Shown one piece after another: positions 21,482 through 50,589 of a stretch of DNA of 64,000 nucleotides (position 1 is the stretch's first letter; the number at the start of each line of letters is the position of its first letter). Made by a program: the position numbers and the translations under genes. A model generated the notes under the pieces. The model worked only from the letters and a program-made list of their open reading frames with translations, searched no databases and was not told where the DNA came from. Source of the stretch: Anadara kagoshimensis (taxonomy: Eukaryota; Mollusca; Bivalvia; Arcoida; Arcidae); assembly GCA_021292105.1 (NCBI GenBank), contig CM037861.1, positions 60,309,245 through 60,373,244 of the forward strand, in the 5' to 3' direction.

Positions 21482-21525
<44 letters not shown>

Positions 21526-23475: not shown

Positions 23476-23750
23476 ACTTCACTCCTCCCATTTTGAGTGT
23501 CATTCACAACTTCACACTCCTTTTATCTTGGCATTTGGATAAGTCAAACTGTTTTGATTCCCATGAAGTTTAAGATAACAGGATTCAACTGTATTAAAGT
23601 TAGAGTTGTTTATCCTAAATTTGATCTTACCATCCAAATTTTTAGGACGGGGTGGTAAAAACACATTTATTCTTAGAAAATGACAATTATGATTTAGCAT
23701 GTTTAGGTGACATAAATTACAATATTTTTTTAAATTAAAACAGTTTCAAT

Positions 23751-23865
23751 ATGCTGAAAATGAAAAGAACTAAAAGAGAAAACCCTACAGCCAAGGCTGT
23801 TCGCATAATAAAAGAAGGAAAAGACCAAGAGGGTTTTGATATAAAATATATTAGCAAGATTAAAG
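23751..23865 (+). CDS. KMT5A-like SET gene, exon 1 (right copy)
   Basis: Starts at ATG 23,751 and reads MLKMKRTKRENPTAKAVRII, ending in KYISKIK just before a GTATGT donor; 38 codons plus one base (phase 1). The segment IIKEGKDQEGFDIKYIS aligns in style with the pre-SET helix of KMT5A (the ...ESGKEEGMKIDLI... region), directly before the glycine loop encoded by the next exon. The start is the first ATG in frame; an upstream spliced exon cannot be excluded. Confidence 0.7.
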
Positions 23866-24713
23866 GTATGTACCCATCTATATATATGTAATACGTAAGC
23901 ACTGGTAATAGCTCAAACAACTTAAAAGATATTGCTTAATATTGCTGAGTAAAATTGCTTACTACAACTTTACCATAGTGAGCATCAGATGATCAGATAA
24001 AATCATGATCTCTTGTTATGGTAATGTGTAAACATGATCTTAAGTCACTTGAAGTCAGATAAATCATCTGACGGGTACCACATATTAGTTGTGTCACCAC
24101 TGTATTTCACTTTTTTGTGGCAAAATGGCATAAACATGTAATAAAAAATTTTCCAACCCTTATTTGAGCAGAAATTTAATTCAAGGCACATTCAAGACAA
24201 GTAAGTGTCCATTTGGCTGATTTTAAAGTTTTTAAGTGTTTTCTATTGTCTGAAATTAAATCCCGGATCTCGATTTGATATTGATTTCTCAGGATGATAT
24301 CCAACACAATATGGAAGAAGGAAAGATGATAACATAAATCCAGTCTTCCAAGTGCTACTCTTGATCATCAAATACTGTGAAACCTTGATTCATTGCTATC
24401 ATTTGTTCAGTGAGATTTTGGCATTATAAGGAAGTTTGGTGTTATATATTGAGGGACACTTATAAAGAAAAACATAGAAGAAATCAATTTTGGAAATTCT
24501 AAATGGTGTGGCAATAAGTGATGTAGCAAAGTTATTGAGGGGCAATACAACTAGGTTTTACTGTATATGCACAATACTCTATTATTGATATATACATGCA
24601 TATACATATAATATGTAATGTTTGCATGTATAATCTATTTTCATGATTCATACATGTATGTAACTTACACATCAATCATGAAACAGTAAAAAGTCCTTTC
24701 TTAATTATTTTAG

Positions 24714-24894
24714 GATATGGTGTTTTTACAAGCAAGTCATTTCAGAAAGGAGATTTCCTGCTGGAATATGCAGGTGATTTACTTTGTAAGGAAGAGGCAG
24801 ATTTGCAAGAAGAAAAGTACTTGAGGCGTCAAAGAAATTCCTTGTATCCAAGATGCTTCATGTATTATTTTAGACACAATGATAAAGATATGTG
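24714..24894 (+). CDS. KMT5A-like SET gene, exon 2: SET-N half (right copy)
   Basis: Bounded by TTTTAG acceptor and GTAATT donor, entering in phase 1 and leaving in phase 2. It encodes residues 39-98 of the predicted product: GYGVF glycine loop, then FQKGDFLLEYAGDLL, the SET N-terminal core where KMT5A has ...FxRGDFVVEYxGDLI..., and later CFMYYFRHNDKDM, matching the C-Y-M-Y-Y-F strand of KMT5A. KMT5A-family enzymes monomethylate histone H4 lysine 20 using S-adenosylmethionine; the activity of this copy is unproven. Confidence 0.85.
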
Positions 24895-25768
24895 GTAATT
24901 ATATGTTATGTATACATGTATATCTGTATATGCAAGTTTGGCTTGGTCTTGAAGAATTTGGAAAGTCGTGTTGTCATTCTTGGGTCATTGTCAGCATTTG
25001 TTAAGATATGGGAGGAAGTGTTGGAGTTCACCAGAGTGACATTTATTGTTTAGCTAGCTGTATGTTCTTTGATCATGTTGAATATTTATGAAATATATGA
25101 AAGTCCACCTCAGTAATGAGTATAGACAGCTCCTGCCTTACATATGTGATTTCTTGGTACTTCAAGACAATCTTTGTATAGATCTATTAGACTTATTGTC
25201 CAACTTTGGTGAAAATTGGTACACTGATACATTAGTCTGTGCAGACAAATTTCATGGTTGTATTACTACCATTTCTAGCTTTTATGATATTTTATGCCCA
25301 TTCAAGATTATTTTGCTCATGGGTAGTCACTTTTTGGTGGAGGAAACCGAAATGCCCAGACTATTGACAAACTTTTTCCGCATGAAATAATTTGTCCTCG
25401 CAGAGGCTTGAACTCAGCATTTATATTTTTAATTTTCACATACACAAAAACATGCTTATAAGTAGTAACTAAGTGGTGTAACTTATTAAAGTTATTGATT
25501 TTGATAACTTGCACTTGTAAGTTATTTGAAAAAACACAAATATATACACAAGTTATTGCTGAACATTGACTTGTGTTGTTTCCACTGTTCTGACCAGCCT
25601 TATCTTATTTTCTATTCGAATTCTAAGTTTACGCCAGGCCATTTTCAAATTACATCACAGAAATGTTTAACTTGGTTGTTACTTTTTGAGAGATTATAAG
25701 TATTCAAGCATGTTAACTGATTTTATTTTGGAGAGAAAAAAATTGAAATGTTTATTTTGTGCTTGCAG

Positions 25769-25961
25769 CATTGATGCTACCAACATGTGTGGAAGGGCAG
25801 GTTCACTGGTAAATGACTCTGACAAAGATGCCAACTGTGCAGTTAAAAAAGTTGTGGTGGATGGAAGATGCCACCTTGCCATTTTTGCCAAAGCAGACAT
25901 TGACATAGGGGCAGAACTGCTATATGATTATGGTGATGCAACAAATCTTTGGTGGAGGAAG
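25769..25961 (+). CDS. KMT5A-like SET gene, exon 3: catalytic core (right copy)
   Basis: CTTGCAG acceptor, GTAAAT donor; enters in phase 2, leaves in phase 0. Encodes CIDATNMCGRAGSLVNDS (residues 99-116) and later IGAELLYDYGD (145-155), equivalent to the CVDAT, NHS and YDYGD motifs of KMT5A. The usual NHS is NDS here (His to Asp at residue 115), a change at a cofactor-proximal motif. The Tyr in YDYGD is kept. No post-SET cysteines follow, as expected for KMT5A. Confidence 0.85.
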
Positions 25962-26159
25962 GTAAATAATCTTTATCTCAAATTGAGGAAGATGCAGAGA
26001 CACGATTATGGCTCTGTGTTTCTTGTTGATATTAATGCCAAAACATATGGGAGGGTGTTGTGCTTTAAATGGAAGAGTTTTTAATCTTTTTTCTTTGTTG
26101 ATACTGTGTCAGTTTTTGTGCCTGCCACTACTAATGTTGCTAATGTATGGATCATGAGG

Positions 26160-26320
26160 TCTTTCAGCACTGAGGCTGCGTGTTTGAATCTGACTCGTGT
26201 CTTATCTGAGAAAGATTTCACAGTGGGTCGATGGTTTTATTTGGGTACTCCGACTTCCTCCAACATTTAAAATTGACTTCCCAGATATGTGTGAAATAAT
26301 CTTGAAAGGGTATAAAACAA
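26160..26320 (+). repeat. SINE-tail-like dispersed repeat
   Basis: Same family: TACTCCGACTTCCTCCAAC, then a TGTGTGAAATAATCTTGA and GGGTATAAAAC tail. It lies in the intron between exons 3 and 4 of the SET gene; the mirror is at about 16,665-16,830. Confidence 0.6.
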
Positions 26321-26726
26321 CATTTAAAAAGAAGCCTTTAAATGTATTCAAGAGAAATCCAATAGGTCATACATAAGAATATTGATTAACAGTTATCCCA
26401 TGGTTATTGCAAGTCTGATAGGCTTGCTTTGGATGTTTTTGAAACATCACAAAAACATCCAAGTATTATATTCATGTTTCTTCCATAATTAGACAAGCCA
26501 GAATGTGTCTGTCATTGCTCAGCTCAACTTGTTGGCATCTTCATTTGGTTAATGTACTACATATATGGCTGGTTACAATAAAACATGTTAAGAGACTTTG
26601 GAGTTTCAGAGATGTGCTTGATGAGCGGGGATGGGGGAGGAGGAGGGGGTAATTGTAATCTTTGATTATTCCTCATGTTTATCGCTTTTCAGTTTTGTAA
26701 TACCTACTTGTTAACTTTATTTACAG

Positions 26727-26878
26727 GATAACAACAATGAAAGAGATGCCATGTTGGAGAAATATATGTGGGCAAAGCTTCCAGGTATACCCAAGAAAAT
26801 GAAATGGCCAGTTCAAGTTAAATCAGTGTATGAAGACCAGAAGCAGGCTAATGTATATTGTTTGGCTGATGACAGAAA
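26727..26878 (+). CDS. KMT5A-like SET gene, exon 4 (right copy)
   Basis: TTTACAG acceptor and GTGAGT donor; enters in phase 0 and leaves in phase 2. Encodes DNNNERDAMLEKYMWAKLPG followed by a Lys-rich stretch ending CLADDRK. The intron immediately upstream follows WWRK. This is the segment just C-terminal to the SET fold; I do not recognise a domain. Since it leaves in phase 2 with no stop, the SET product continues into further exons, and the next candidate (28,295-28,422) enters in the required phase. Confidence 0.6.
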
Positions 26879-27796
26879 GTGAGTTCATTACACCATCTGT
26901 CATATATGATAAGGGATATTTATAGTGCAATTGAAATGCATTTAAACACCTAACATCAGTCTTTGCTAGGATTGTTTTATACTTCACCTGATAGTGTTAT
27001 TTGATGCGATTGTTTTACAAAAATTATCCTCGATTTGTGGGATTTACTTAAATTTTTACATACGTCAAGGTTATTGCACACCTATCATAACTATTAAATG
27101 CCAACAGGAAGTCAAATCTGATCAAAATCAGGTGGTAAACATTGGTAATTTATGATTGTTAATGATATACTTTTTGTGAAAGATAGATACTCTGCTATGG
27201 TTAGCAGGGCCTCGATTCCTAAGTGACATAGGTCATTATCAGCCAGTAATTGCTGTAGCCTTTCTCATCCTAGGTTTTGTGATTCTATCTGGTTCATAAC
27301 AGTTTGCAAAAACGAATTATTGCAAGAATACATTTAGTGCCACAAGTTATAAATCCAATATGGCGATTTTAAATTTGACAAAGCTGTTTTATCAATTTGT
27401 CTTCAGAGGTGAGCCAGATTGCCTAATCTATCATGTCTCGGTGAAAATTTTAACCATATTATCCCATGTTAAGATGTTTATGCAAAAACTGGACTCTCCC
27501 CTCCCATTTTCCCATACTCCCCTAACCCATTTCACATGTGCTTTAAGGCCAGACAAATCAAATTGTGTCCCCCACCCTCCCCCACTAACCCTATCTCCCT
27601 CCCCATATTCACAAAATAAATGTTTTAGGTCCTATCAATCTCTATGTGTTTAAACTATACATATGATCTTCATAACCTATGTCAGATTAACAGATAAGCA
27701 GGGAATTTTAGTCATCTTAATGACAAACTGTTGGGGATATTATTATTATTAATTCATCATTTGTTATGAAAAATATTTTCTTTCTCTGTAAACTTT

Positions 27797-28158
27797 TAGC
27801 TCATCTAAGCCAAGGCCCTATAGATTATTGAAAAATCATAAATCACTCATGTGCATTAGCTAGACATTAGATATTATAAATACAAGTGTTATTTAATCTA
27901 AACAAATGCAGGTAACAGGACTTCAAATGGGGTATCTGTAGAAGGACTCCTATAAATTATTTAAAACTCACAAATGACTAATGTACAATAGCTAGACCTT
28001 ACTTATTTCAGATTAAGCATTTGTAGTACAAATAATTATTAAATCTATAATGCTGGACTATGGGGCTCCAAAAAGAGACTTTAATTTATAAAAACTCAGT
28101 TAAATACTACAAGATAGCTCATTAAGGTGAGAGTTAAGGCCCACATGGGCCTCTTGTT
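27797..28158 (+). mobile_element. Short Helitron-like element (right copy)
   Basis: Begins TAGCTCATCTAAGCC and ends with AAGGCCCACATGGGCCTCTTGTT, the same end style as the element at 30,352, with two diverged internal units. No ORF. It is present at the mirror position in the left arm. Confidence 0.65.
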
Positions 28159-28294
28159 AATATGCAACTAAGAGTTGGGACAAAAATAGGGTAGATAGGG
28201 TAACCCCTAACAGACCCATATTTCCGGTTGAATGATTTTCAGTCATGAAATTCCTTAAACAATAAAATAAAATGGTTGTTTTGCTTGTATACAG

Positions 28295-28422
28295 TTTCAG
28301 AGTATCTTTGGATGATATTGAATGCATTTCTCATAAAGAGTGGGAAGATATAGGAATTGGTTGGTTTGAGTATTGTTTTGTTCGTTGCAGTTGTCTTAAA
28401 TATATTTCGATATTTTTAAAAG
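28295..28422 (+). CDS. Candidate linker exon between SET and recombinase parts (right copy)
   Basis: An acceptor TATACAG precedes an open segment reading FRVSLDDIECISHKEWEDIG, closing at a GTGTTT donor after 128 bases. Entry phase 2 matches exon 4 of the SET gene, and exit phase 1 matches the 63-base exon at 34,417. There is no recognised domain. The donor is weak, and an alternative donor lies inside the exon near 28,366, so the exon end is uncertain. Confidence 0.4.
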
Positions 28423-29107
28423 GTGTTTCCGCTTCCCAGTTTTCACAATTCCTTATAGAGTGTCAATGTTTTCACAATTCCTTATAAAGTGTCCATGTTT
28501 TGGGGGGTTTTATGGAAAATGTTTGGCCAATGAAAACAAAATTTCAGAGGTATTCAAGTTTCAAATGTATTGTTAAATTGTTTTAATTTTGGTTTTTACC
28601 TTGTGGAAAAATCATCAATAAGAAAGTATGTAAAACTTTCATTTTAAGTACCTGCAAAATACAACTTAAAAGGTTGGTCAATCATTTTAAGACCCAAAAA
28701 GTTTCTCTGGGTCTTTATGATTTTAATTGCCAAATGTTTGTCACATCTCAATTTTTGCAGAACACTGTAGTGGAAACACCTCTTGTTTCATGTTATTTTT
28801 ATTTTGATTTAAAGATTGGGCTATATTGTTTTTATATTGTTTCACAAACAAATCTTGTTTTGCATTAGTCCATCTTGGAATCTAGGAATACCTACCACAT
28901 TTCTTTTCCTGGATACTAAATTCATTCAAAATGGGACTTACAGTGGTGTAGAGCTGCAACAAATACCAATAGTACTTTTCGAATATCTATACCAGTCTTC
29001 GAATATTATTCAATAGAATATTTTTGGGTTATCAGCAGTTAGAGGTAAAACAGGCATATTGTAGTAAGAAAAGTGCAGGCATATAAGGTTTTAATGTCTA
29101 TCTTGTG

Positions 29108-29290
29108 ATGAAAGACTTTGCTACTGAGCAGGTAAATGATTTGAAGAGCTATTTGAAATCTAGAGGAATTTTGTCGCATTTGTATCTGAAAAATGATTTA
29201 ATTGGGGTTCATCAGTTGGCAAAAGAGTTGCAGCTGAAAAATATTGATTCAGAGAGTGATTACCAAAATTCTTTTTTAGTGAAACTGTAA
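29108..29290 (+). CDS. SAP-like small ORF (right copy)
   Basis: 60 codons from ATG 29,108 to TAA. The sequence VNDLKSYLKSRGI...YLKNDLIGVHQLAKEL has the helix-loop-helix spacing and the Lys/Asp-Leu-Ile pattern of SAP-like DNA-binding motifs (xLKxxLxxRGxxxxGxKxxLIxxV). It is intact in both arms. It sits between the SET and recombinase exons and may be an alternative exon, a small gene, or a domain exon whose splice sites I could not place. It ends next to the arm-specific 1,050-bp indel. Confidence 0.45.
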   Translation: MKDFATEQVNDLKSYLKSRGILSHLYLKNDLIGVHQLAKELQLKNIDSESDYQNSFLVKL

Positions 29291-29679
29291 AAATATATAA
29301 TAATGCTCAAGCAAGATGGTTGTGCAAGTCTTTTTTTTCAAATGACCAAGTGTCATTTCTATTATGGCTAAACTTTCTTATGTACCCTGCACTTTCATTA
29401 AATTCCATGCAAAATATTTAAATAAACAATTATTTTGTCATTCTGAGGTTCCTCTGATACTTATATTTAAATTTTAAGTAGAGGGTACAAATGAAAGTCT
29501 TTTAATTTAGACCTGGTACATCTTGGTTAAAAGGGGCCTTATTGATCCAATGGTGAGTTGAAAAAATGAACTTACAAATCATAGATCCTCTCACTGCCTA
29601 GCTCCAAATCCTAATATAAAAGATAATATTGACCTAGTCATTAGGTTGACAAAGTTTGACAGTTCTCTTGCCATGGTTA

Positions 29680-29785
29680 TTGATTTTCTCTAGGCACTCT
29701 CATTTCCTCAACATTTCTAGAGTTGACATCTTTGATATATGTGAAATAATCTTGACTGGGGATTAAAACAATATTACTCCACCCC
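29680..29785 (+). repeat. SINE-tail-like dispersed repeat
   Basis: Same family: TCTAGGCACTCTCATTTCC and TATGTGAAATAATCTTGAC...GGATTAAAAC. The mirror is at about 12,160-12,270. Confidence 0.55.
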
Positions 29786-30351
29786 TTAATAACATAACAA
29801 ATAAGAATTTTTTTGTTTTCAATGTCTCATTATTCAATCATTATTTTTCACTTTTAATCCAACTACAGGCATTACTTATATCCCAGTATTGAGTCAGTGA
29901 AAATACAACCTCCCACTCGTGACATGCCAACAGTTTATGCGATATAATCAATTCTGGCTAAAGCAAAATGAAATATTTTTTTTAAAAAATAGTGCATAAA
30001 ATTGTCCTAAAATTCCGCTTTTATTCAAGTATAAATTCTGCTTTTATTCAAGTACAAGTTTTTCATGCAATCATACAAGTGTTCCCATATATAAAGATAA
30101 TTTTGGTAATTATTGGTAAGAAATATACAGTAAAACCTATTTTTTAAAAACCACCTGCAGTAATGACCAATGACTGTATTTTATTAACACTGTATTAATA
30201 CAAATGATATGACACATACAGTATCTGTAATCTCTTAATACATACCTACACCAGTAAAGTATTAATACAAAGAAAAAGATATTACAATACTAAATCAACA
30301 TTGAAATGAAAAACCCTTGTTGGTCCACTAGTACCACGACAGTATTTTTTT

Positions 30352-31760
30352 AGCTCACCTGAGCTGAAAGCTCAGATGAGCTATTGCTATCCATCTTCGT
30401 CCGTCGTGCGTCGTCCGTCGTCCGTCGTGCGTAAACTTTTTACATTTTAATCTTCTCCTCCAAAACCACTGGGCCAAATTTAATGAAACTTGGTAACCAT
30501 CATGCCTGGGTGAAGCCCTCTCAGATTTGCACAAATGAAGGAGTTATGTCCCCTTGGGGCCCCATAAGGGGGGAAATAGTGAAAAACTTTAAAAATCTTC
30601 TCCTCTGAATCTACAAGACATATACCTTATTTATTTCATATATAACATCCTTAGGTCATCTAGTTTCAGATTTGCACAAATGGTAGCCATGGGGCTCAAA
30701 ATGGGGAAATGGTAAGGTGCTGAGTGGGGAAATTGCTAAAAATTATGTATTTGTCAATATATCTTGAAAACTATTAACTTTTTGTATAGGCATGTATATT
30801 AGAATATTTTAGGTATTATCCTAACGATCATTTTGATATATGAATGAAGGTCATAGGTTCAAAGGTCAAGGTCACAGATGTGAATGAATACCTGAATGGT
30901 TATTTATCTTGAAAACTGTTAACTTTTTGGATATGCATGTATATTAGAATATTTAGGTATTATCCTAACGATCATTTTGATATATGAATGAAGGTCATAG
31001 GTTCAAAGGTCAAGGTCACAGATGTGAATGAATACCTGAATGGTTATTTATCTTGAAAACTGTTAACTTTTTGGATATGCATGTATATTAGAATATTTTA
31101 GGTATTATCCTAACGATCATTTTGATATATGAATGAAGGTCATAGGTTCAAAGGTCAAGGTCACAGATGTGAATGAATACCTGAATGGTTATTTATCTTG
31201 AAAACTGTTAACTTTTTGGATATGCATGTATATTAGAATATTGTAGGTATTAGCCTAACAACCATTTTGATATATGAATGAAGGTTATGGGTTCAAAGGT
31301 CAAGGTCACAGATGTGAACAAGATCTGAAATGATTATTTATCTCAAAAACTATGAACTTTTTGTATAGGCATGTATATTAGACTATTTAGGTATTATCCT
31401 AATGATCATTTTGATATATGAATGAAGCTCATGGGTTTAAAGGTCAAGGTCACAGATGCGAATGAATACCTAAATGGTTAATTATCTTAAAAACTATTAA
31501 CTTTTTGTATAGGCATGTATATTAGAATATTGTTAGTACGGGCACAGTGGTCATTTTGATAGATGAATGAAGAGCATGGGTTCAAATGTCAAGATCACAG
31601 ATACAAACAAGTACTGAGATGATTATTTATCTCAAAAACTATAAACTTTTTGTATAGGGATGTATATTAGAATATTGGCCGAATTATCATTTTGATATTT
31701 GAATGAAGCTCATGGGTTCAAAGGTCACAGGTGAGCGTTAAGGCCCATGGGCCTCTTGTT
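30352..31760 (+). mobile_element. Helitron-like non-autonomous element with 145-bp internal repeats (right arm only)
   Basis: The left arm preserves the empty site (seven A then TTTT side by side at 11,594-11,604 region), so the ends are defined: starts AGCTCACCTGAGC and ends with a small palindrome AGGCCCATGGGCCT followed by CTTGTT. There is no target duplication; insertion is between T and A, or between two T allowing for shared bases. Inside are about seven tandem units of about 145 bp (spacing of TTTTGATAT near 30,832, 30,976, 31,121, 31,266, 31,410, 31,555, 31,691). A hairpin near the 3' end, no target duplication and internal tandem repeats fit the Helitron/Helentron type of short element known in bivalves (pearl-like). 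No coding capacity. Confidence 0.75.
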
Positions 31761-33299
31761 AAAATTAACACCTATAACAAGACTACATACTAAGTTAGTA
31801 ATGGTTTGTGCAAATTACACACACAAAAACACACTTTCAAAATTTGATTCACTTCCGATTTCATAGTCAGTGGAATGGCACCAGCTAAGATACTAAATAT
31901 TTTTAATCTTGGACAAGCTATACTTCTTTTTAAACATTCGCAACATTCAGTTATTTGCCTCTACCCCGTTTACATATTCATTGTAGCTCTTCTTTCTAAT
32001 TATAAATCTCTAATTAAATACCCCTCTGTCTACCATAACTTCAACTTTCTTTTGTTACCGGTATGTATCTGTCTGATGTATTACCTCCCCAAATATGTGA
32101 AATAAAGTTGAATGATCCTGCAGGTGTGATGTTTATGAGTGCTTTACATGTGCTTTTGTGTTTGTATGAGCTGTATGTTTGTGATTGTGTTGTGGATGAT
32201 TTCGGTTTTTCAAGTGTAAAATCAATGCAGTCATTTATACATGTTGTTTTTTTTTTGAAAATGTGCCTTGAATGTTTTTGGCAAATGTTTTTTAATCTTT
32301 TGTGATAATTGCCATTTTAACAAAGGATTAAATACACAATGCAAAAGATTAACCCAAGTGGTAAATATGTGTGACTGAGATTTTTGAATGGGGATTAGCT
32401 TTCTGCTTGGTTGAGACATTTTCTTTAAGGGTTCTTGTTGGTCATATACGTTCTAATTTGTTGCTTGGCCATTCCAGTAGTTGGCCTTTGGTGCTGTGTC
32501 CTTACTGTGTAACAAAAAAAAATCATTTTAGTTCATATCAATCAAAAATAATAATAATAATATAATAATAAATTCAAAAAAAAAAAAAAAAAACATAATT
32601 TGGTGAGAAAAATACAGGTCTCCATTATATACAATATCGTGAAATGACAGTTTCTATAGATGCCATAGGAAACCAAAAGTATACATGCCTGCACATCACT
32701 TGACTTAAGTAGATTATAAATCTCCGAATTAGCACGAAACGGGGAACCTGAAAATGATCTATTGTTCAATGTTCTAAGAAAATTTACAGAATGATAGAAA
32801 AACAGCGGAAAAAATGCAACTATTATTCTTTTTGTAAAAAAAAAACTAACAGTGCAGTATATTTTATCAACAATTTAAACTGAAAATGATCAAGCAAATA
32901 TTTTCAATATATTCCATTTTCTGTCTTGTTAAGTACTATTTGTGGTGATTCAGCAAGTTTGATGTTGATCTAGTGTTATCAAGTTTTCAGAATGGATATT
33001 ATTTGAATACTGTCAGAAAATTGGAGTAACAGAACATCCCTATTTCTAATATTTGTTTGCAGCTCTACAGTGGTGTGTACTTGCATAGTGGAGAATAAGG
33101 TTAAAGGTTATCTACTGTTTCATTGACATAAACAACATACTTCTTTGGCTACAGCCCCATGAGCCTCTTGTTTATGAAAAAAGGAAATATGTGAATAGTT
33201 TACAGTGTATCATAGAACTACACTTCAGATATATGCAATTTGGTTTTGTATTAATTTCAGTTGACATTCTAAAGTATATAAATCATAAATAGACGGTAA

Positions 33300-33545
33300 G
33301 AACTCAACAAGCTGAAAGTGCAGTTTAATGAGTTTCAATGAAAATAAACCTGAAAACACAAACAATGATCAAAGGGACACATTACCATAAAATAGTCAAA
33401 ATAAACATACTGGTAGCATTATTGGTTGGGAATCCAACAGTATATTTTGTAGATACTATTGGGGCAATGGCCCAATAATATCTTATATATATATACATAT
33501 ATATAGCACTATTGGGTCTTGCTCAAAACTTAGGCTTCAGAATTA
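33300..33545 (-). repeat. TTGGGTC-family dispersed element (right copy)
   Basis: Contains TCAAAGGGACACATTACC, GGGAATCCAACAGTATATTT and a TATTGGG...CCCAATA pair around a (TA)n core. It is closely related to 48,300-48,430. The mirror is at about 9,840-10,030. Confidence 0.6.
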
Positions 33546-34416
33546 TCTTTTACCATGGAACTAGTCGATTTAACAAGCCTCAACTTGCAGTTGGTTGATC
33601 ATTGAGTTCTTTCCTGCTATTTGTAATTTATTATTTATTTAGAAAGACTACTAAATCCAACATATTCTATCACAGATCAGCACAACCAGGGTGTGGGTTT
33701 ACTTCATCTTCAGTTAAAATATATAAATCTCTATATTTTTTTTCTCAAAATTTTTTTTTAATTTTGCTATGTAATTAATAGATATGTGCCAAATTTACAA
33801 TGCAAATTTAATGAGATAATATTTCTATTGAGTATAATGGAAAATGGTATTGGATTTCATTATATTGTGCAATTAACATGGTAACTTTATTAACAGATAT
33901 GCAATAAAGTGGTTTCAGCTATATTATAATTAATTTAAAACCTCTGAAATAAAATCAGAAATATAAACACCTGATAGCTAGCACAATTATTCTATCCCAT
34001 GCCTTTTGGTGAAACTAATTTACCCTGTTAATTAGTTCATCAATATGAGTAACAGGAAAAGTAACAGAAAATGTTTTATTTTGATAGTTTTAGGCAAAAC
34101 AAATATAAAAAATGAATTATTTTCTAATAGTTTTTAATAATTACATTTTGACAAATCACACAAAAGAATTTTTATTTTTTTGCCTTGTCAGTTATGTTTT
34201 TGGGGCATGTGTCTGTTACACCGACAGCTTTTGTTTATTTATAATAAATGACGATTTTATACAATAACTGTCATTAAGTGAGTATCTTGTTAAACTAATT
34301 ATGTGAAGAGTAAAATAAAAAATTGAAAATAATGCATAGCATCTCATATTCATATCAATTAAGGAGTATTTATTACAATCCTTCAAGAATGTAGTTTTTT
34401 TTATTTCTTTTTGCAG

Positions 34417-34479
34417 AATGTTTGAAAAAAATGCCAGTATTTCTGAACTGCTTCAGACATGATTTGTCCTGGGCCAGAG
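34417..34479 (+). CDS. Small exon upstream of the octapeptide array (right copy)
   Basis: A strong polypyrimidine tract and TTTTGCAG acceptor precede 63 bases that end at GTAATG. In the frame required by the following exon it reads CLKKMPVFLNCFRHDLSWAR with no stop. Enters and leaves in phase 1, consistent with the exons on both sides. No domain recognised. Confidence 0.5.
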
Positions 34480-34973
34480 GTAATGAATATTTTATTATCA
34501 AAAATGGTACTATTCCACAATAAATAATATTGCCATTCCAGTCATTTGACTTTTTGAAATTTGGCTGAAAATAAACTTTAAAACCTAAATGTGTAAAAAT
34601 GTTTAAATGACTTTTGATAAATTCTTTACAATTAATCCTGCTGAAAAGGTGTAAGCATTGTCTGTGAAGTCTTATTCTCATCTTTTAATTTGGAAACGAA
34701 AGCAGAAACAGACACTGCATATGTTGTGCTTGTGAAATTTCTTAAAACATTAATTGAAATTTTAAATATCAATTAGTGAAAAAAAATTCCACAAAATATT
34801 TTTTCCAGGAAATTCAATGGAAAAAAATAATAAACTCTTTATTTCACTGTTAAGTTTCGATAAGTTTATCATTTCAAGTTGGGGATGCTTTCAGTATCAA
34901 TGTCAAGGTCAAACTTTGTAATCAATCAGTTGAAATTTTATAATTCTCTAATTATACTTCCAGAGGGTACAGC

Positions 34974-37900
34974 AGTGCAACATCCTCAACAGGAGGTTGA
35001 ATATTCTACACAACCTATGCATGATGATATGGTTCAACCTACAGAAGATGGTATGGTAAGACCCTTGTCCCTGGATATAGTACAATCTACACAAGATGAT
35101 ATATCTACACAAGATGATATGGTACAACCTTCTCTAGATGGTATGATACAACCTTCAAAAACAATATGGTACCACATTTGCCAAATAATATGGTACTTGT
35201 GCCAGATGATGTGGTACAGCCCTTGCCAGATGAAAATGTGCAACCTTCACAAGATATGCAACAACCTTTGCCATATGATATGGTACAACCTACACAAGAT
35301 GATATTTTACAACCTACACAAGATGATATGCTACAGCCTACACAAGATGATATTGTACATCCTACACAACATAATATAGTACAACCTTTGCCAGATTATA
35401 TTGTACAACCTACACCAGATGGTATGGTACATCCTACAAAACATAATATGGTACAACCTTTTCATGATATTACAGAACAACCTTTGCAAGATGATATTGC
35501 ACAACCTACGCAAGATGATATTGTACAACCTACACAACCTACACAAGATGATATTGTACAACCTACACAACCTACACAAGATGATATTGTACAACCTACA
35601 CAAAATGATATTGTACAACCTACACAAGATGATATTGTACAACCTACAAAATGAAATGGTACAACTTACACAAGATGATATTGTACAACCTACACAAAAT
35701 GAAATGGTACAAACTACACAAGATAATATGGTACATCCTACACGACATAATATAGTACAACCTTTGCCAGATATTACAGTACAACCTTTGCCAGATTATA
35801 TTTTACAACCTACACCCGATGGTATGGTACATCCTACAAAACATAATATGGTACAACCTTTTCATGATATTACAGTACAACCTTTGCAAGATGATATGGT
35901 ACAACCTACACAAGATGATATTGTACAACCTACACCCGATGATATTGTACATCCTACAAAACATAATATAGTACAACCTTTGCCAGATAATACAGTACAA
36001 CCCTTGCCAGATTATATTGTACAACCTACACCAGATGGTATGGTACATCCTACAAAACATAATATGGTACAACCTTTTCATGATATTACAGTACAACCTT
36101 TGCAAGATGATATTGCACAACCTACGCAAGATGATATTGTGCAACCTACGCAAGATGATATTGTACAACATACACAAGATAAAATGGTACAACCTACAAA
36201 AGACGATATTGTACAATCTACACAAGATGATGTGGTACAACCTACACAAGATGATATTGTACAACCTACACAACCTACACAACCTACACAAGATGATATT
36301 GTACAACCTACACGACATAATATAGTACAACCTACACAAGATGATATTGTACAACCTACACAAAATGAAATGGTACAACTTACACAAGATGATATTGTAC
36401 AACCTACACAACCTACACAAGATAATATGGTACATCCTGCACGACATAATATAGTACAACCTACACAAGATGAATTGGTACAACCTACACAAGATGAATT
36501 GGTACAACTTACACAAGATGATATTGTACAACCTACACAAGATGATATAGTACAACCTACACAAGATGAATTGGTACAACCTACACAAGATGAAATGGTA
36601 CATCCTACACAAGATGAAATGGTACAACCTACACAAGATGATATTGTACAACCTACACAAGATGAAATGGTACTTCCTACACAAGATGAAATGGTACATC
36701 CTATACAAGATGATATGGTACAACCTACACAAGATGGTATTGTACATCCTACACAAGATGGTATTGTACAACCTACACAAGATGAATTGGTACAACCTAC
36801 ACAAGATGAATTGGTACATCCTACACAAGATGAAATGGTACAACATAGACAAGATGATATTGTACAACCTACACAAGATGATATTGTACAACCTACACAA
36901 GATGATATGGTACAACCTACACAAGATGATATTGTACAACCTACACAAGATGATATTGTACAACCTACACAAGATGAATTGCTACAACCTACACAAGATG
37001 AAATGGTACAACCTACACAAGATGAAATGGTACATCCTACACAAGATGAAATGGTACATCCTACACCAGATGGTATTGTACAACCTACACAAGATGAAAT
37101 GGTACATCCTATACAAGATGATATGGTACAACCTACACAAGATGATATTGTACAACCTACACAAGATGATATTGTACAACCTACACAAGATGAAATGGTA
37201 CAACATAGACAAGATGATATTGTACAACCTACACAAGATGAATTGGTACATCCTACACAAGATGAAATGGTACATCCTACACAAGATGAAATGGTACAAC
37301 ATAGACAAGATGATATTGTACAACCTACACAAGATGAATTGGTAATCCTACACAAGATGAAATGGTACATCCTACACAAGATGAAATGGTACAACATAGA
37401 CAAGATGATATTGTACAACCTACACAAGATGAATTGGTACAACCTACACAAGATGAATTGGTACATCCTACACAAGATGAAATGGTACAACATAGACAAG
37501 ATGATATTGTACAACCTACACAAGATGATATTGTACAACCTACACAAGATGATATGGTACAACCTACACAAGATGATATTGTACAACCTACACAAGATGA
37601 TATTGTACAACCTACACAAGATGATATGGTACAACCTACACAAGATGATATTGTACAACATTCACATGATGAAAACTTAAGTGACTTTGAACAGACTTTT
37701 GAAACAGACAGTGACAAAGTCAAAGATCCTGACTATGTTGTTACAGACAGCACTTCAGATGAATATGATAGCTTTTCCAATGAAGGACTATCATCTTCAT
37801 TTAAGCTTGGACAAAAAAGAAAAAAGCGATTTACCAAGAGAAAACGTGTGAAAAAACCTGCTGTTCCCCTGAATCCTGTCCTTGAAAATACTTTCATGGA

Positions 37901-39364
37901 CAAAGCTAATTTTGTTGAAGATAGTTTCCTGTCAAACTCCGACACAAATATGCCATACAATACCAAACCTCTTTATCAATCTTTGACAATAAATGACTCT
38001 TTCATAGATGATGCTGAAATTACAAATTCAGATGGTGAGATGTCAGATTCTATCTCTATCAAGAATGGTTTGTCAAGTAATTTATATCCAAATGTATATA
38101 TACTACAAAGAGGAGAGAAGAAAGAAGGATGTAAGCAAATATATGACAAAAAGAATTATTGTACCTTTTGTGAAAAGGAAATATCTAGTAAAATATCAAG
38201 ACATCTCCTTACCGTTCACAGGGACAGAACCAGAGTATCAGAATTGTTGTTGCTTCCAAAGAAATCAAAAGAAAGACTACACAATTTGGAGCTCTTAGCC
38301 AATGAAGGCAACTTCAAACATAATATTAATGTTTTGCAAAAGAAAGAAGGTTGTCTAGTGGTTGCTCGGAGAGATGGTTATGAGGAAAAGAGGCCAGTTG
38401 ACTATTTACCATGTGAATATTGCAAAAAATTTATTTTGAGGACATCACTTTGGTGGCATAACAGAAATTGTTGTTTTCGGGGAACAGGGGAAAATGCAAG
38501 TCTTGATGAAAATGAAACTTCAAATAATGCAGTGCGGCATGGACAACATTTGCTTCGTAGTGCATTACAAGAGGAGACTGATAGCTTTGTTGTGAAAATG
38601 CTATCCAGAATGAAGAATGACACTGTTAAGGCAATTGTAGAAGATGACTCCTTACTCAAACGTTATGCTGCCTTGAGAGTGGATTCCTTAGGGGAAGAAG
38701 GAGATCAAAAAATCAATGATATGTATAGGGTTTCCCAATGTTGTAGAACTTTAGCAAGATTGATTCTAGAAGCCAAGAAGATGCGGCCAGAAACTATTAT
38801 CAGCCTTGATTATCTTGTGAGACCTGAAAATTTTGATTTAGTTGTTGAATGTACAAAGGCATTGTCATTAAGAAATGACAATCCAGCATTGACCCTTGGT
38901 AAGTTCATAGGGAACCTGTTAAATCATGTTGTCCAAATTAAGGTTGGCCATGCATTGCGTGAAAATGATGATAGAAGGAATCAAGATGGTACTAATTTTC
39001 AAAAATTGATGAAAGCTGAATGGAACTACCGTGTAAATTCAGTATGTCTTAAGCGTATTAATGCTGTGAAGCGAACAAAAGTTCAAACAATTCCCCTAAC
39101 AGATGATTTAAAAAAACTAGTTGCACACATTCAGACAAGTATGGAAACCAGTTCTATTGCTCTGACTAAAACTAGACTGTCTTGCCATTGGACAGACCTT
39201 GCACAACTGACAATGTGTCGTTTAATCCTCTTCAACAAAAGACGAAGAGCTGAGGTCAAAGATTTGAAAGTTTGTGAATATCTACAGAGGCCAAATTGGA
39301 AAGATGAGGACAATGGAGAATTTGGACTTGCTTTATCAGAAGTGGACAGATTACTTGCAGACAG
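34974..39364 (+). CDS. Large exon: octapeptide array, C2H2-type fingers, N-terminal half of a tyrosine recombinase (right copy)
   Basis: Acceptor TACTTCCAG before 34,974, donor GTAATT after 39,364 (leaves in phase 2). It opens with EGTAVQHPQQEVEYSTQ, then about 110 copies of an 8-residue repeat of type DDIVQPTQ to about 37,672. Next come an acidic stretch and a basic patch (KRKKRFTKRKRVKKP, likely nuclear), one C2H2 finger (CTFC...H...H, near 38,160), one C2HC-like finger (CEYCKKF...WWHNRNC, near 38,410), and an all-helical segment leading to ILFNKRRRAEV near 39,225-39,255. The last is placed like box I, with the catalytic Arg, of a tyrosine recombinase. Array indels near 35,160, 35,648 and 37,345 break the frame. 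They may be sequencing error or decay. Confidence 0.7.
35010..37672 (+). repeat. 24-bp coding minisatellite (octapeptide DDIVQPTQ type), right copy
   Basis: Tandem 24-bp units, each coding variants of D-(D/E/G)-(I/M/L)-(V/L)-Q-(P/H)-(T/L)-(Q/P/K). Variants include QHRQ, HPTQ and QPLP subfamilies arranged in runs, and local 9-bp (QPT) expansions near 35,520-35,590 and 36,260-36,290. The unit has no stop codon in two forward and two reverse frames, so long apparent ORFs occur on both strands. Total length is about 2.66 kb. Confidence 0.95.
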
Positions 39365-40034
39365 GTAATTATATCAAATACAATTTAAAGGTAACTGTAA
39401 GGTGAATGGATGCCATGGTCACACGATCATGACATCATTTATCTATCTGTACATTTGCCATATTCTTTGACAAAATATGCCAGAAAAGTTATAACAGAAC
39501 ATTTTTGATGCATTATACTTTTTTTTGTAATATAGAACTGATTGATTTCAATAAAAATCAATAAAAGGTAAAATCAATAGCTAATAAGAAAAGTCTTGCT
39601 TTACTGGTGCTAACAGATTAAACAAATTTTCATCAACCCATAGTACACTGTTTTCCACTGATGTTTCTAATCACTTTTGTTTTCATATCGATATGGTGCC
39701 AATCCTATCTGATCAATATATCAATAGTTGTTTTCAACTGGGGAGACAATAAGATCAAAATGAACTTACAAAATTGAAAAAATGTTTTCTCTGAACACAG
39801 ACAAACTAGGGAACATACAGATTGAACCAGAATTAAATTCTGTTGTGTTTTGAAATACAAAATGAAATTATTTAGTTCATTTTACTCAATGTTATCAAAT
39901 TAAATGAAAAGGAAAAACAGGGTGTGATATATTTATGGACGTATAATAGTGAGTTTACATTGTGTGCACTGGGGCATGTTGCAACTCAGTTGATAGTATA
40001 AACCTTCATATGTCATTAAAATCTTTTTTTGTAG

Positions 40035-40314
40035 GATGGATATGGTGATATCTGCGGGAAAATCACGCAAAAATGTTAATGCATATGTTATACTGCCACC
40101 AGATGCAAAATCTGCGATTGATTTGCTAATAAAATTCAGAAAAGAAGTTGGAATACCTGAAACCAACCCATATATTTTTGCAAGATTAAATGCAGATACC
40201 CCATTTAGTGGCAACACTGAAATGGCAGAAATTGTTTCTAAGTGCCCTGGTTTGCAGCATCCGGAGAGAATCACCTCTACTTCTCTGAGGAAATATATTG
40301 CAACTGTTTCCCAG
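40035..40314 (+). CDS. Tyrosine-recombinase-like exon carrying box II (right copy)
   Basis: Acceptor TTTTGTAG, donor GTATGT, entering in phase 2 and leaving in phase 0. Reads RMDMVISAGKSRKNVNAYVI... and ends ERITSTSLRKYIATVSQ. The VILPPDAKSAIDLLIKFR segment resembles the strand and helix after box I. TSTSLRKYIAT sits where HxxR (box II) is expected: the Arg is present, and the His three residues before it is Thr. This combination also occurs in eukaryotic Crypton-like recombinase derivatives as I recall them (not checked). Confidence 0.75.
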
Positions 40315-40993
40315 GTATGTTTTGTTTACTGTGAAATCATTTATTTTCTGAGGTACTGTGTGACTATTTTCAGAGTAATTCAATGTTTTGTTTGGACTTG
40401 GATTTCATTGATTAAAAAAAACTATAATTGGAATGTCTCATATAATACCTTCAATTCCTCATCATATGTATCATAATTGAACAATATAAGTTTGTTTACA
40501 TTAGCAATGACCATTATGTATAGAGGATCTTAAATTCATGTTATGTAATATTGATTTGAAAATTTTTCGTATCAAGTTAATTATCTTGCATTTTGGATTA
40601 TATTCTATAATTTACTATTTTATGAAAGTTATGCTAAAACAAACTTTGTATAGTTATTTGGCATTTTACAACAAACATGAACAAATGCCAATATGGTATT
40701 TTGGAAAAACACTTTATATACCCCTTCCCTTTTGCTGACATATCCAGAATTTTGTCAGCATTTGCCTTTGTAGAAAAGGCATCATTATTGAACAACTAAG
40801 ATACAGGTATTTTGGAAGAGTTTTAGAGTGTTGCAGACTAAATTACGCTGTGGTTATAGGAAAAGATTGCAAGGATTGATTTCTCACATCAAGTTGGCAT
40901 GCCAGTGTCCAAAGTGTAGTACAAACATGTAAAGCGTTTAAAAATTTGAATAATTTTGGCAGCACAAAAATAACAAGTATTGCTTGTTTTTAG

Positions 40994-41107
40994 ATTTTGG
41001 ATATGACAACAAATGAATTTGAGATGCTGGCCAACCATCTTGGTCATGATGTGAAAACCCACAAGGAAAATTATAGGTTGAGCCATTCAACAGTAGAACT
41101 TACAAAG
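40994..41107 (+). CDS. Tyrosine-recombinase-like exon carrying the LGH...Y motif (right copy)
   Basis: Acceptor TTTTTAG, donor GTAAAT; exactly 38 codons in phase 0. Reads ILDMTTNEFEMLANHLGHDV then KTHKENYRLSHSTVELTK. LGHD...H..NY is the classic C-terminal signature of tyrosine recombinases: the third catalytic His and the nucleophilic Tyr. Together with the two Arg residues in the preceding exons, the R-R-H-Y set is complete. Confidence 0.8.
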
Positions 41108-41734
41108 GTAAATGTATATTGACCACAGTTAATTTCTATTAAGAACATTATCCATATTCCAATAGTTTTATCATTGAAAAGTTTTAAAAATGTATATTTG
41201 GGCTTGGTTGAGACCAAAGTTGTGTCATCGGTAGTTTTCTCGAAAGCTTTGCTTGTGTGGGTATGCAATATAATACTATACCACTTCTTTGCTAATGCTT
41301 ACTTATTTTCTTTTAACCATTGAAACTGGCTGAATTTATTCCGATTGTCTGTTGTGATGTAAGGATGCTGACATTTGCCAATGAGGCTCTTTGGTCAAAG
41401 ATCAACTGATGGTCTTTTGAAGTTAACGATCAATGATAAGTGATTTGCATCTGGATTTTTACAAGTATATTTCCACACCTGTATATGTAAATCTCTGCAT
41501 GGGAACAATAAAATTTATCAAATTTACACTTAATCTGAAGTAGATGCAAAAAGTATTTTTGCATACATGCGGAAATATTTATGTTATTTCCTAGCATCTA
41601 ACGAAAATTTCCAAAGAATCGTATGATAAATATGTCAGTCAAATCTTGTGTTATTGCTTTCCTTTTGTTATTATTTGTTCTATGGTGAGTTGGCATCATT
41701 CAATTCATTAATTCAATTTACATCTGAATTACAG

Positions 41735-41816
41735 GTCTCTCATTTACTTCTTGCTGTTGAAAGTGGGCAAGTTAATAAATGGAAAGGGAAAAAATTAGAG
41801 GACATCACCTTAGATG
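41735..41816 (+). CDS. Exon following the recombinase core (right copy)
   Basis: ATTACAG acceptor, donor GTATTT. 82 bases, phase 0 in and phase 1 out, reading VSHLLLAVESGQVNKWKGKK then LEDITLDG. The LLLAxExG...KGKxLEDI pattern looks like the tail that follows the catalytic Tyr in this recombinase-derived family. It is identical in both arms. Confidence 0.65.
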
Positions 41817-41984
41817 GTATTTACTCTATAATACTTTACATACATTGTATATTTTCTCATTGTGGCAGGAGGTAACTGGTGTTGGTCTGTTCATAATTCT
41901 TACCAATCAGAGTTAAGAATTTTATTTTCTTCCACATTTGCCTTTTAAAGAACAATTACTTCAAGCCTAGTAACTAGGTAAATT

Positions 41985-42250
41985 TTTAGCCAGGTTTTCG
42001 TAGAAACCTGGTTCTTAGATTAACGAATGTTGGCGGGTGGGAGGGCAACATCAAATTGGTTTCTGGATGATAACTAACAAATTTTTTTCAAAATAACTTT
42101 GTATGTGAATACATAGTAACAGATTTAGGTTAGGATTACTTTTGGGGTCAGTGTGTCAAAGGTCAAGGTCACATAGGCTGAAAAATCTTAAAAAGTTGTT
42201 TTTCAGTTATGAAATAGTTATTCAGTGTAAGTTAAGTGTGGAGATAAAAA
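41985..42250 (+). repeat. Dispersed repeat with CCAGGTTT hairpin (right copy)
   Basis: Contains a 22-base hairpin, CCAGGTTTTCGTAGAAACC, at 41,990-42,011, followed by an AAGGTCAAGGTCACATAGG block that resembles the internal unit of the Helitron-like element. The mirror is at about 1,280-1,540, with the hairpin at 1,514-1,535. It is probably a fragment of another short element. Confidence 0.5.
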
Positions 42251-43639
42251 GTAAATTCTGGTTGTATGGCATTTATCTATAGAATCTTATAGGTGGTTAT
42301 TTTTCAGACTTGTGTAGGAAATTTACCAGTTACATGTACTTCTGGAAGGTAGCAAGTCTGTATAGTTAGTATGGATCACAAAGCCTCACACCTGAAGTAC
42401 AAGTTCGAGCCACAGCGAAGACAAATTATTTCATGTGGGAAGATTTAATTTATCCTAGGTTGTTGGTTTACTCTGGACACTGGTTTTCTCTACACCCCCT
42501 CTCAAAAAAATATACTGCCCCTATATTCATGAGTGAAATAATCTTGAAGAGATGTAAAACACCAATAAAAAATCCATTTAAAATACCAAAACATGAATAT
42601 AAAAACACCAAGACTCACTGATATGGATTTTTCTTGTCAATATAACCCCACCAGATGCTTCTGATAGATCAAATTTTCAATGTTGTCTAATTTAAAACAA
42701 CATTTTGACATTCATATTCACATATATATTTCACACAAGTATTTAAAGAATAAATTAGTTTGTTTTCTTTCTTTTGATAGAGATATATTCATTTACATAA
42801 GTACATTAAAAACCATGTAGTGACATTAAATCAGCATGTTGGTTACTTTGGACACATGGTCTAATTCTTATCACTGTCTAAATGTGAGTTTGAATTTTGC
42901 TAAGTATGGATAAAAATTTGATTTTATTTTTCCTGTTTGTATTGGAAACCAATTTGCAAGTTATGCTTTGCCACAGTGGTTGCACTCAGACTTTTATCTA
43001 ATAAAACTGGCATGTCTATTAATGTGCCCAATGTATTGTATTGTGTTATTCTGCCATGGTCGGTTGGTTGGTTGCCTGTTGTTTTATGTCATCAGTAATC
43101 TTTCAGCCTTTTGTGACGAAATCAAGTTTTTACTTATCTCAGGATTAGTCTTCATATTTTCTTGTGGTAATGAGTTTGTGCTTTGTATTAGTGTGCACTG
43201 ATGACAACTATTTTGGTGTTAGTTCACAAAAGCATTGCCAAGATATACACAACACCCACTCGGTCACATTATACTGACAACAACGGTCACATTAAACTGA
43301 CAACAAGCCAGTCAGTAAAGAAAAAGTAAGGGAAATTCCAACTCACAGTGGTGAGAGACCTTGGGTTTGAAGACTAACGTCTTAACCCCTCGACCACAAC
43401 AGCCCTTTATTCAGCCATGGTGTGCTTATTATTAATACAAGACTGATATTGATTTGCTATGTAGCTTCTTGATCTCTCCTAGTGCCATCTTGTAGTAATC
43501 AACTTTAATGTTGGATCATTACTTAATTTTTTATGTCACTAACATATCTGGTAGTCTTTATTATTTCCCAAATAAGAGACATTGCATATTTGTGATGATC
43601 AATGTTTCATTTTCTTGCAATAGGTCTATAATGGTTTAG

Positions 43640-43810
43640 GTAGACATGTTCTGAATACTGATGTTCACTTTTCTATTATTTTGAAAGAATTACCAGTAGT
43701 TTACGAAGAGGGAGATGTAGAAGTTGATGAAGAGATGGATGTAGAGGTTGACAAAGAGTATGTAGAGGAAATGATAGAACAACAGGGATGCTCAGGTGAC
43801 ACAAATGAAG
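43640..43810 (+). CDS. Acidic exon of the recombinase gene, beyond the mirrored segment (right copy only)
   Basis: Using the acceptor GGTTTAG (43,633-43,639) the exon enters in phase 1, as the previous exon requires, and reads RHVLNTDVHFSIILKELPVV, then a strongly acidic run (EEGDVEVDEEMDVEVDKE), ending at donor GTAGTT in phase 1. An alternative acceptor at 43,621-43,623 gives the same frame 16 bases earlier but would break phase. The corresponding left exon would lie beyond the window. Confidence 0.55.
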
Positions 43811-44035
43811 GTAGTTATACTGGTATATGGTGACAAAAGATTATGTTAAACTAAATGCTGATAGCATATTTTGTGGATGTTTAATGACATCATTCACATG
43901 ATGTTTTTAGGGTGATTTTTCCTTTAAATGGCCCTTGGTGTAGTTTATTGTCTATGTAGTATATTATTTACATGGACTATCTAGTCATTGTGCAGACCTT
44001 TGCTTTTTGTGTTTCCTTCTGGATGATGGAGCTGG

Positions 44036-44700
44036 AGCTGGGTGCTATGGTTGGTAGTTGAGGTGGTGCTGCTGCTTGTACATCTTTGCTTTTGTTGATT
44101 TCATCAGTCTGTTGCTGGAGCAGTGATGTGCGGCTGTCTTCGCGCTTCTACTTACGTTATTTGATGTTGAGCTGTTTCTTTTTGTGCATCGCTTATCACC
44201 TGATGTAGGTATTGCGACCACTGGTTTGCAATGGTATGCTTTGGTTGCATGGTTGGAGATGGTAATGGTGCTGGTAGGTTTAATTTCCAAACAGGTGCTG
44301 GAACCTTTTTTTCTTTCTTACTGTCTGTGTCTTTGCCTTGATCTTTGACTTTTTCAATCACCACTGGAGCTGGCTGGGTGGTCTGTGCTAGTTCCTGCTG
44401 TTCTTTCCTTTTTCTCCAGCAGGATTTATTCTGCCAGAGAGTTGATGGTGACTTATTTTTTCGTTTTAACAGCAGTTTCCAGCTGGATTGTTCGGATTAA
44501 TCCTGGTCCCCCTGGCCTTTTTGGTCCATACTAAGCTGACAATGTATTTTCCCATGTCTTCCTTCAGGGAGAAGGTAACCAGTAGTTCCTTTAGTTAGCA
44601 TGCTATTTAGCAGGCAGTTGAAAGCTGGAGGCAGGTTGGCTACACAAAGGTCATTGTTCATATCTGCACCTTCCAAGCTGTAGAACTGTGTAGAATTCCC
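44036..44700 (-). pseudogene. Unrecognised coding relic inside the last large intron
   Basis: On the minus strand, open segments read FYSLEGADMNNDLCVANLPP near 44,680-44,620 and VVIEKVKDQGKDTDSKKEKK near 44,364-44,305, separated by stops or frameshifts. The composition is basic and Gln/Pro-rich, as in retroelement ORF1 or gag proteins, but I do not recognise the family. It lies between two exons of the recombinase gene. Confidence 0.35.
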
Positions 44701-45044
44701 GTTTACAGATGTGATATTAGGTCAATTTTATACAGTATAACAATCTTGGGTCTTTGCTAAGACATATATATAAACTTTACATCCCCTTTGTCATAATTGC
44801 AATTTTCATTGGAGAGGTTTTTTTTCTCGATAAAATCAGATGTATATGTTTGGTCCAAATTGATTTTGAGTTTAAAATTGTACTTTGTGGTGCAAGAAAG
44901 AATCAGTCAAAATTTTTTCCCTATCTTGACCACAGTTTGTGGTAGATTCTATAATCTAATATAATTATGTACATACACTTACCATATCTTGTAAAAAAGG
45001 AAACATCACTGTAATTCTAACTCTAATTTCTAATATACTTTTAG

Positions 45045-45249
45045 GACAGCCAAAAAGAAAACGATGGACACCAGAAGAAACCAATGTATTGCGTAAAAAT
45101 TCAAGATGTATTTGGACAATACAAAAAATATAAGCATCCACCGTGCTGATCTTATAGAAGTGCAAAAGACCTGTCCTTCTCTTCAATTGCGAACTCTGGC
45201 ACAGATACGAGCAAAGCTGAACAACATAAAGCTTGGGAAATCAACATAG
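45045..45249 (+). pseudogene. Terminal Myb/SANT-like exon with a frameshift (right copy only)
   Basis: Acceptor ATACTTTTAG; phase 1 entry matches the acidic exon. The frame begins GQPKRKRWTPEETNVLRK, a basic patch followed by a Myb/SANT helix 1. It meets a stop about 30 codons in (near 45,131). The +1 frame from about 45,100 continues the domain with a CPSLQLRTLAQIRAKLNNIK helix and stops at 45,247-45,249. This suggests loss of one base in or next to the A/T run at 45,094-45,101. It may be a real lesion or a consensus error. Confidence 0.55.
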
Positions 45250-45252
45250 ATT

Positions 45253-45550
45253 TTAGCTCACCTGAGCGGAAGGCTCACATGATCTTTTCTGATCAAAATT
45301 TGTCTTGTTGTTGTTGTGAACTTTTACATTTTCCACTTCTACGCTAAAACTACTGAACAGATTTCAATGAAACTTGGTATATTTGGGCCGGTGCATTTCA
45401 GATTTGTTTGTGTGTGTTGCTATTGTAACAAAACTAGTCACAGTGACCTAGGGGTGCAAAAATCTTTAAAAATCTTTTTCTCCAAAAGCATGATGAGAGA
45501 AAAATCTGATGTGATATTTGGGTTCTCTGGGGTCTTAAGACTATAAATTG
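45253..45550 (+). repeat. Helitron-like 5' end fragment
   Basis: TTTTAGCTCACCTGAGCGGAA, then AATGAAACTTGGTATATTTG, matches the opening of the element at 30,352 (AGCTCACCTGAGC...AATGAAACTTGG). No 3' hairpin was found downstream; the rest up to about 46,050 is diverged. Confidence 0.55.
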
Positions 45551-46880: not shown

Positions 46881-46894
46881 TCTAAAAGATCAGA

Positions 46895-50585: not shown

Positions 50586-50589
50586 TTAG

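Follow-up and report, generated by a model that had tools for sequence, protein, structure and literature searches.

In the fungal Starships, the captain recombinase is marked by DUF3435, and DIRS and Ngaro retrotransposons, with their split or inverted repeats, have a DIRS-type reverse transcriptase (RT) working with a tyrosine recombinase (YR). Cryptons are eukaryotic DNA elements that carry a tyrosine recombinase, lack long terminal repeats and are proposed to pass through an excised circle; those of animals are reported to have neither a C-terminal domain nor terminal repeats, and CryptonA recombinases match DUF3504 at E ≤ 8e-12 (PMC3212892, in the part of the article available to us). The available parts of that article and of PMC6431247 describe no giant tyrosine-recombinase DNA element for animals. 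Here, we analyzed a window of 64,000 nucleotides from the bivalve Anadara kagoshimensis (assembly GCA_021292105.1, contig CM037861.1, positions 60,309,245 to 60,373,244 of the forward strand), in which an initial annotation had proposed a single gene fusing a KMT5A-like SET domain to a tyrosine recombinase and a SANT domain. The suspected fusion gene sits inside a 37.0-kb mobile element with about 35 near-identical dispersed copies in the same genome. It is likely, in our judgment, that this is a giant and recently active animal DNA mobile element whose main product is one spliced protein.

A search of the genome (1.115 Gb in 36 contigs) with the recombinase region gave 39 matches; 32 span it entirely or almost so, at 98 to 100% identity. 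A candidate linker exon at 26,727 was found at 35 places, and the left end of the element (the 21,541-21,740 stretch) likewise gave 35 matches. Both ends were retrieved for ten copies, representing nine independent sites because copies L025 and L026 share one flank. The right-hand terminal base (window position 58,555) is identical in all ten, and in all ten the left motif follows a TA run of at least 20 bp; on the right, the run reaches at least 18 bp in eight copies and 10 bp in the other two. Only 1.1% of random 60-bp stretches from the retrieved loci reach 12 bp. Furthermore, the short repeats GACCCAATA and TATTGGGTC cluster at both ends of the element, in both orientations. An ordinary host fusion gene is ruled out by the roughly 35 dispersed copies with fixed ends. 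What the initial annotation had overlooked is thus a multi-copy giant mobile element, present here as an inverted pair, while its placing of SET domain and recombinase in one unit stood. As to the shared flank, L025 (C8) and L026 (C3) are identical on the right over the 1.5 kb compared and differ on the left, suggesting that one end of the element took part in a rearrangement or duplication; the left flanks of L015 and L016 are listed with this case.

The pairing of the two domains extends beyond the window family. We compared 150 scored SET matches (there were 350 candidates) with 105 recombinase matches merged into 87 loci. The nearest SET lies within 40 kb upstream and on the same strand at 62 of the 87 loci, against a mean of 0.395 and a maximum of 3 in 200 trials of random placement. 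By count, the window family accounts for 34 of the 62, and the other 28 loci fall, when grouped by score, into about nine divergent families, whose recombinases are 26 to 43% identical. Since copies within a family are not independent, this evidence counts as about ten families and not as 62. A single locus among the 87 has its SET downstream, and that SET has its own recombinase further on. A separate observation concerns the C19 family: its recombinase (L046) is close to that of the C9 family (L042), but the SET exons of the two families are far apart, a hint that SET modules may have been exchanged between families.

The SET domain is readily recognized. Pfam SET matches the spliced window product at E=4.8e-19, and the best PDB match is KMT5A (E=1.6e-24), followed by 4ldg ("Protein with a SET domain within carboxy region," 5.2e-20) and KMT2A (1e-11); by sequence, the domain is KMT5A-like. 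The recombinase was borne out indirectly. No recombinase family of Pfam matches the spliced window protein, and its recombinase is homologous to that of the compact C11/C10 family (tblastn E=2e-36), of which the C10 member matches Phage_integrase at E=3.8e-5 with 24.0 bits, below the curated cutoff of 27.1. Of three further long recombinase frames, two match the same model weakly (0.0028 and 0.013) and the third does not, and a profile of six recombinase sequences weakly reaches XerA (E=0.025). R(R/K)RxxE, TSTxLRK-type and GHDxxxHxExY segments align across the families wherever the rows reach. We take these motifs to supply the catalytic R, second R, H and Y, and the first H of HxxR is replaced in these recombinases. 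Judged by this homology, the shared segments and the weak XerA match, the element recombinase is a divergent tyrosine recombinase. In three other copies, the recombinase match lies in open frames of 1,100, 1,242 and 1,266 amino acids, which probably run through the octapeptide array preceding the recombinase (Table 1). The C13 family, with nine loci of nearly equal score, has recombinase frames of 867 to 875 amino acids. A one-pattern search for relatives in IMG/VR gave 132 stretches, none of them confirmed.

The main question of interpretation is whether the two domains form one gene. In the alternative that survives best, the element carries two adjacent genes, a SET gene and a separate recombinase gene, that are co-mobilized and not co-spliced. 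An ATG in the open frame upstream of the array acceptor (34,864-34,974) makes a separate recombinase start possible, phase continuity in the window is not diagnostic, and the distance from SET to recombinase ranges between about 2.8 and 31 kb. However, SET exon 2 meets a phase-0 donor just after the core, and not a stop, in all seven families read by eye (window, C11/C10, C2, C13, C3, C9 and C19), the donor of C2 being weak (GTTAGA). In the compact C11/C10 family, with a gap of 2.4 kb, a splice scan gave three compatible phase-0 linker exons, a single exon in phase 1 and nothing in either phase 2 or antisense. Among 500 Markov shuffles, 455 held no exon, 43 held one and 2 held two; the scan thresholds were chosen after the sequence had been read, and a fourth linker exon was placed by eye. 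Moreover, the recombinase exon of this family opens directly after its acceptor, and no ATG precedes the first cysteine of its first finger. The C2 relative (L036:3880-5676) has an unrelated tandem protein repeat, with units of about 40 amino acids, between SET and recombinase, like the octapeptide array of the window. That repeat is divided between two frames, although its last piece would join the recombinase exon in phase; the window linker peptides gave no convincing match to L036.

At the window copy, the twelve exons with matching phases that had been proposed held up in part. Eleven of the twelve starts follow an AG acceptor or, for the first exon, coincide with the ATG, but the array exon starts at 34,964 and not at 34,974. 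The six exons from 23,751 to 34,479 and the start of the 34,964 exon translate as one open frame, and so do, when joined, the recombinase exons ending at 39,364, 40,314, 41,107 and 41,816. For the acidic and last exons, the frames as read indicate compatible phases, but the array and the last exon carry frame breaks, and an intact gene at this copy was not confirmed. Phase agreement across the SET-to-recombinase gap proved to be weak evidence, since 20 phase-typed candidate exons emerged from a splice scan between 25.9 and 35.0 kb. The initial annotation had this agreement rely on the 28,295 exon; 27,303-27,408 alone would also join SET to the array in phase. The peptide of the 26,727 and 28,295 exons (EKYMWAKLPGIPKKMKWPVQVKSV...NFRVSLDDIE) has a PWWP-like look by eye, with no Pfam, PDB or genomic support, and such a domain is not claimed. 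The SANT domain was not recovered either: no Pfam family matched the C10 homolog up to E=10, with HMMER filters that may hide weak matches, and the window exon, its frame being broken, was not scanned whole.

Several observations weigh against an active element in which SET and recombinase form one gene. The octapeptide array of the window copy changes frame at least three times (frames read by eye), and the 45,045 exon can be read on only after a change of frame, its length differing by one base between the two arms of the inverted pair. The joined linker peptide has no match elsewhere in the genome outside the window family and none in Pfam. With 150 of the 350 SET candidates scored, no SET match accompanies 24 of the 87 recombinase loci, or 23 once a SET exon recognized on reading at C2:13,625,117 is included. 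Many copies of the linker exons are perfect (31 of 35 for 26,727-26,878; 30 of 34 for 28,295-28,446, the exon plus 24 intron bases), but an intron control is equally identical (33 of 35), so within-family identity does not prove these exons and fails as an argument for them. The SET exons of ten copies contain no substitutions and two indel events, both in L021, where only about two unique substitution sites would be expected at the neighboring rate by our estimate. Finally, the compact-family pair L034/L035 is decaying, and purifying selection was not shown from it: its recombinases differ by 8 synonymous and 17 nonsynonymous changes, one stop and one indel, one of its linker exons carries deletions, and SET exon 1 of the C10 copy contains a stop.

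On balance, we consider two separate genes unlikely. One fused gene is the better reading because SET comes before the recombinase in divergent families, because all seven families read have the phase-0 donor and because phase-0 linker exons form a chain in the compact family, and the chances are good that the two domains are encoded by one fused predicted gene. While the phase argument at the window copy is weak, a predicted gene with SET, linker, zinc fingers and recombinase is well supported as the architecture of the element.

A second alternative concerns the enzyme that moves the element, which could be a DDE transposase acting in trans or the gypsy integrase, with the recombinase as a passenger. 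The short repeats in both orientations at both ends would suit such a mover, and TA junctions are also typical of Tc1/mariner-type targets. Yet the recombinase is conserved across families, and no transposase besides the gypsy integrase pieces was found among the selected open frames scanned. Those pieces belong to a Ty3/gypsy remnant whose RT pieces, in the manner of gypsy, occur together with H2C2 and rve integrase pieces. Two stop codons in this remnant are shared by 10 of 10 copies, which disfavors the gypsy machinery as the mover. Movement by an enzyme other than the element's own recombinase therefore seems improbable to us.

It is less probable still that the SET domain is a captured passenger that does nothing for the element. 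The NHS motif is important in KMT5A, and its histidine matters for activity. Although KMT5A (SETD8) is the closest in sequence to the element SET core among solved structures, the NHS site is ND in the seven families read, with S, A, E or D as the next residue, and the core is followed by a splice donor in place of the C terminus. The change from H to D possibly alters or abolishes catalysis, and in view of it and of the role of the histidine in KMT5A, the SET head may read or bind rather than methylate. Loss of NHS would be compatible with cargo, and the element does carry a decayed Ty3/gypsy passenger. Against this, the SET domain keeps the same position and strand in about ten families. Furthermore, comparison of SET exon 2 (68 to 73 codons) among C13, C3 and C9 gives dN of 0.15 to 0.18 and dS of 1.3 to 2.1, the latter near saturation; by these estimates (dN/dS of about 0.1), the exon is under purifying selection between the three families. 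A SET domain with a function in the element is the reading that we retain.

The window contains most of a 73-kb inverted pair (L010 and L009) of two 37.0-kb elements arranged head to head, from 14,789 bases before the window to position 58,555. Identity between the arms is about 99.5% in the inner part and falls to about 96% farther out, which suggests recent insertion and possible gene conversion near the center; the TA tract bordering the first copy probably served as the insertion site of the second. Outside low-complexity sequence, the arms show no differences in 2,680 exon bases (mostly recombinase) and 20 substitutions plus 21 indels in 12,236 non-exon bases. The near-perfect palindrome at the center could point to an assembly fold-back with inflated copy counts, but this is hardly credible because the arms carry private insertions of 1.0 and 1.4 kb, are about 3.5% apart outside the inner part and have different outer flanks, and because flanks also differ among eight copies compared, except for one pair sharing its right flank.

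How does this element compare with the described systems? Like the Cryptons (CryptonA, CryptonI), to judge from the available part of their description, it is a eukaryotic DNA element that has a tyrosine recombinase but no long terminal repeats, and movement through an excised circle is proposed for both; it differs in its 37-kb size, SET head, C2H2-like fingers, tandem linker and C-terminal part. DUF3504 gave no match in six element recombinase proteins (one of them partial), and of the 150 scored DUF3504 matches in the genome (among 406 candidates), none lies within 3 kb of the 87 recombinase loci and two lie within 100 kb. Membership in CryptonA is ruled out by the absent DUF3504 match, and the element is also more than a recombinase only. 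On two small contigs, SET matches of equal score and DUF3504 matches occupy opposite strands about 6 kb apart (C33:373263/379287 and C34:104055/98227). The element resembles the fungal Starships, as far as their partial description goes, in being giant and having a tyrosine recombinase, but here the host is an animal and the recombinase is joined to SET and fingers. DUF3435 was absent from the Pfam matches of the same six proteins, the model not having been searched by accession. SETMAR (Metnase), in the description available to us, also fuses a SET methyltransferase domain to a transposon-derived enzyme, but it is a domesticated primate gene with a mariner transposase, whereas the element described here is mobile, exists in many copies and pairs a tyrosine recombinase with a KMT5A-like SET. 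We found no report of an element joining SET and tyrosine recombinase in a literature search to which subscription journals, Repbase and nr were external. Animal databases hold many automatically named KMT5A-like proteins, among which related elements may exist unnamed.

In the mechanism that we propose, the predicted protein would consist, in order, of a KMT5A-like SET domain, an acidic or repetitive linker, C2H2-type fingers, the tyrosine recombinase, an acidic tail and a small C-terminal domain. The fingers would bind the GACCCAATA repeats, and the recombinase would cut the TA-flanked ends. An excised, probably circular intermediate would then be released and reinserted into (TA)n tracts. 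Meanwhile, the SET head would act on or bind chromatin at donor or target sites, or shield the element.

The coordinates of all features are collected in Table 1. A 145-bp satellite at window positions 30353-31755 is present only in the right arm, and a similar satellite occurs in L036 and in the flanks of several copies.

Table 1. Positions of the element copies, predicted exons and other features in the window.
Feature	Position	Strand	Remark
Left-hand inverted copy	1..21476, extends 14,789 bases before window	-	96.2-99.7% identity to right arm
SET exon 2 match of left arm	17048..17227	-	genome match C5:60326292-60326471, converted
TA repeat at center of inverted pair, between two left ends	21477..21522	.	
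Right-hand element copy, (TA)n-GTGTTATCAACACC to TTTAAG-(TA)n	21522..58555	+	ends compared in 10 copies
Left subterminal repeats TATTGGGTC / GACCCAATA	21541..21740	.	35 genome matches of stretch
Candidate first coding exon (MLKMKRTKREN...), phase-1 donor	23751..23865	+	ATG start
SET exon 1	24714..24894	+	Pfam SET 8.3e-6
SET exon 2 (CIDATN...LVNDS...LLYDYGD...WWRK), phase-0 donor, without stop	25769..25961	+	Pfam SET 1.7e-7
Candidate linker exon, phase 0 to 2	26727..26878	+	no Pfam match
Candidate linker exon, phase 2 to 1, weak donor	28295..28422	+	no Pfam match
Candidate linker exon, phase 1 to 1	34417..34479	+	
Array, C2H2-like fingers (by eye) and first recombinase half	34964..39364	+	at least 3 frame changes in array
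24-bp (octapeptide) tandem array	35275..37659	+	
Recombinase exon with TSTSLRK (second R)	40035..40314	+	
Recombinase exon with HLGHDVKTHKENY (H and Y)	40994..41107	+	
Recombinase C-terminal exon	41735..41816	+	
Candidate acidic exon	43640..43810	+	
C-terminal exon, initially named SANT	45045..45249	+	frame broken in window copy
Second 24-bp tandem array, inside element, downstream of gene	48477-50530		
Decayed Ty3/gypsy-type remnant (RT, RNase H, H2C2 integrase pieces), passenger	52096..56409	+	matches in pieces 54,204-56,109
Right subterminal repeats TATTGGGTC / GACCCAATA	58097..58555	.	

To our knowledge, a chromatin enzyme and a transposon enzyme are found fused mainly in individual domesticated genes of the host, for example SETMAR. 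Here, the pairing of SET and recombinase seems to be built into a mobile element and recurs in about ten families. We tentatively propose, at somewhat less than even confidence, that giant animal transposons of this kind form an ancient superfamily of their own, apart from the Cryptons, which would be represented in this genome by about ten families and would recently have multiplied in bursts that left near-identical copies. In this superfamily, the recombinase would carry its own KMT5A-derived chromatin head to mark or read the chromatin of insertion sites or to protect the element. The finding would add a giant tyrosine-recombinase DNA element to animals, and it allows a test of whether a transposon employs a histone-modifying or chromatin-reading domain of its own for site choice or to escape silencing.

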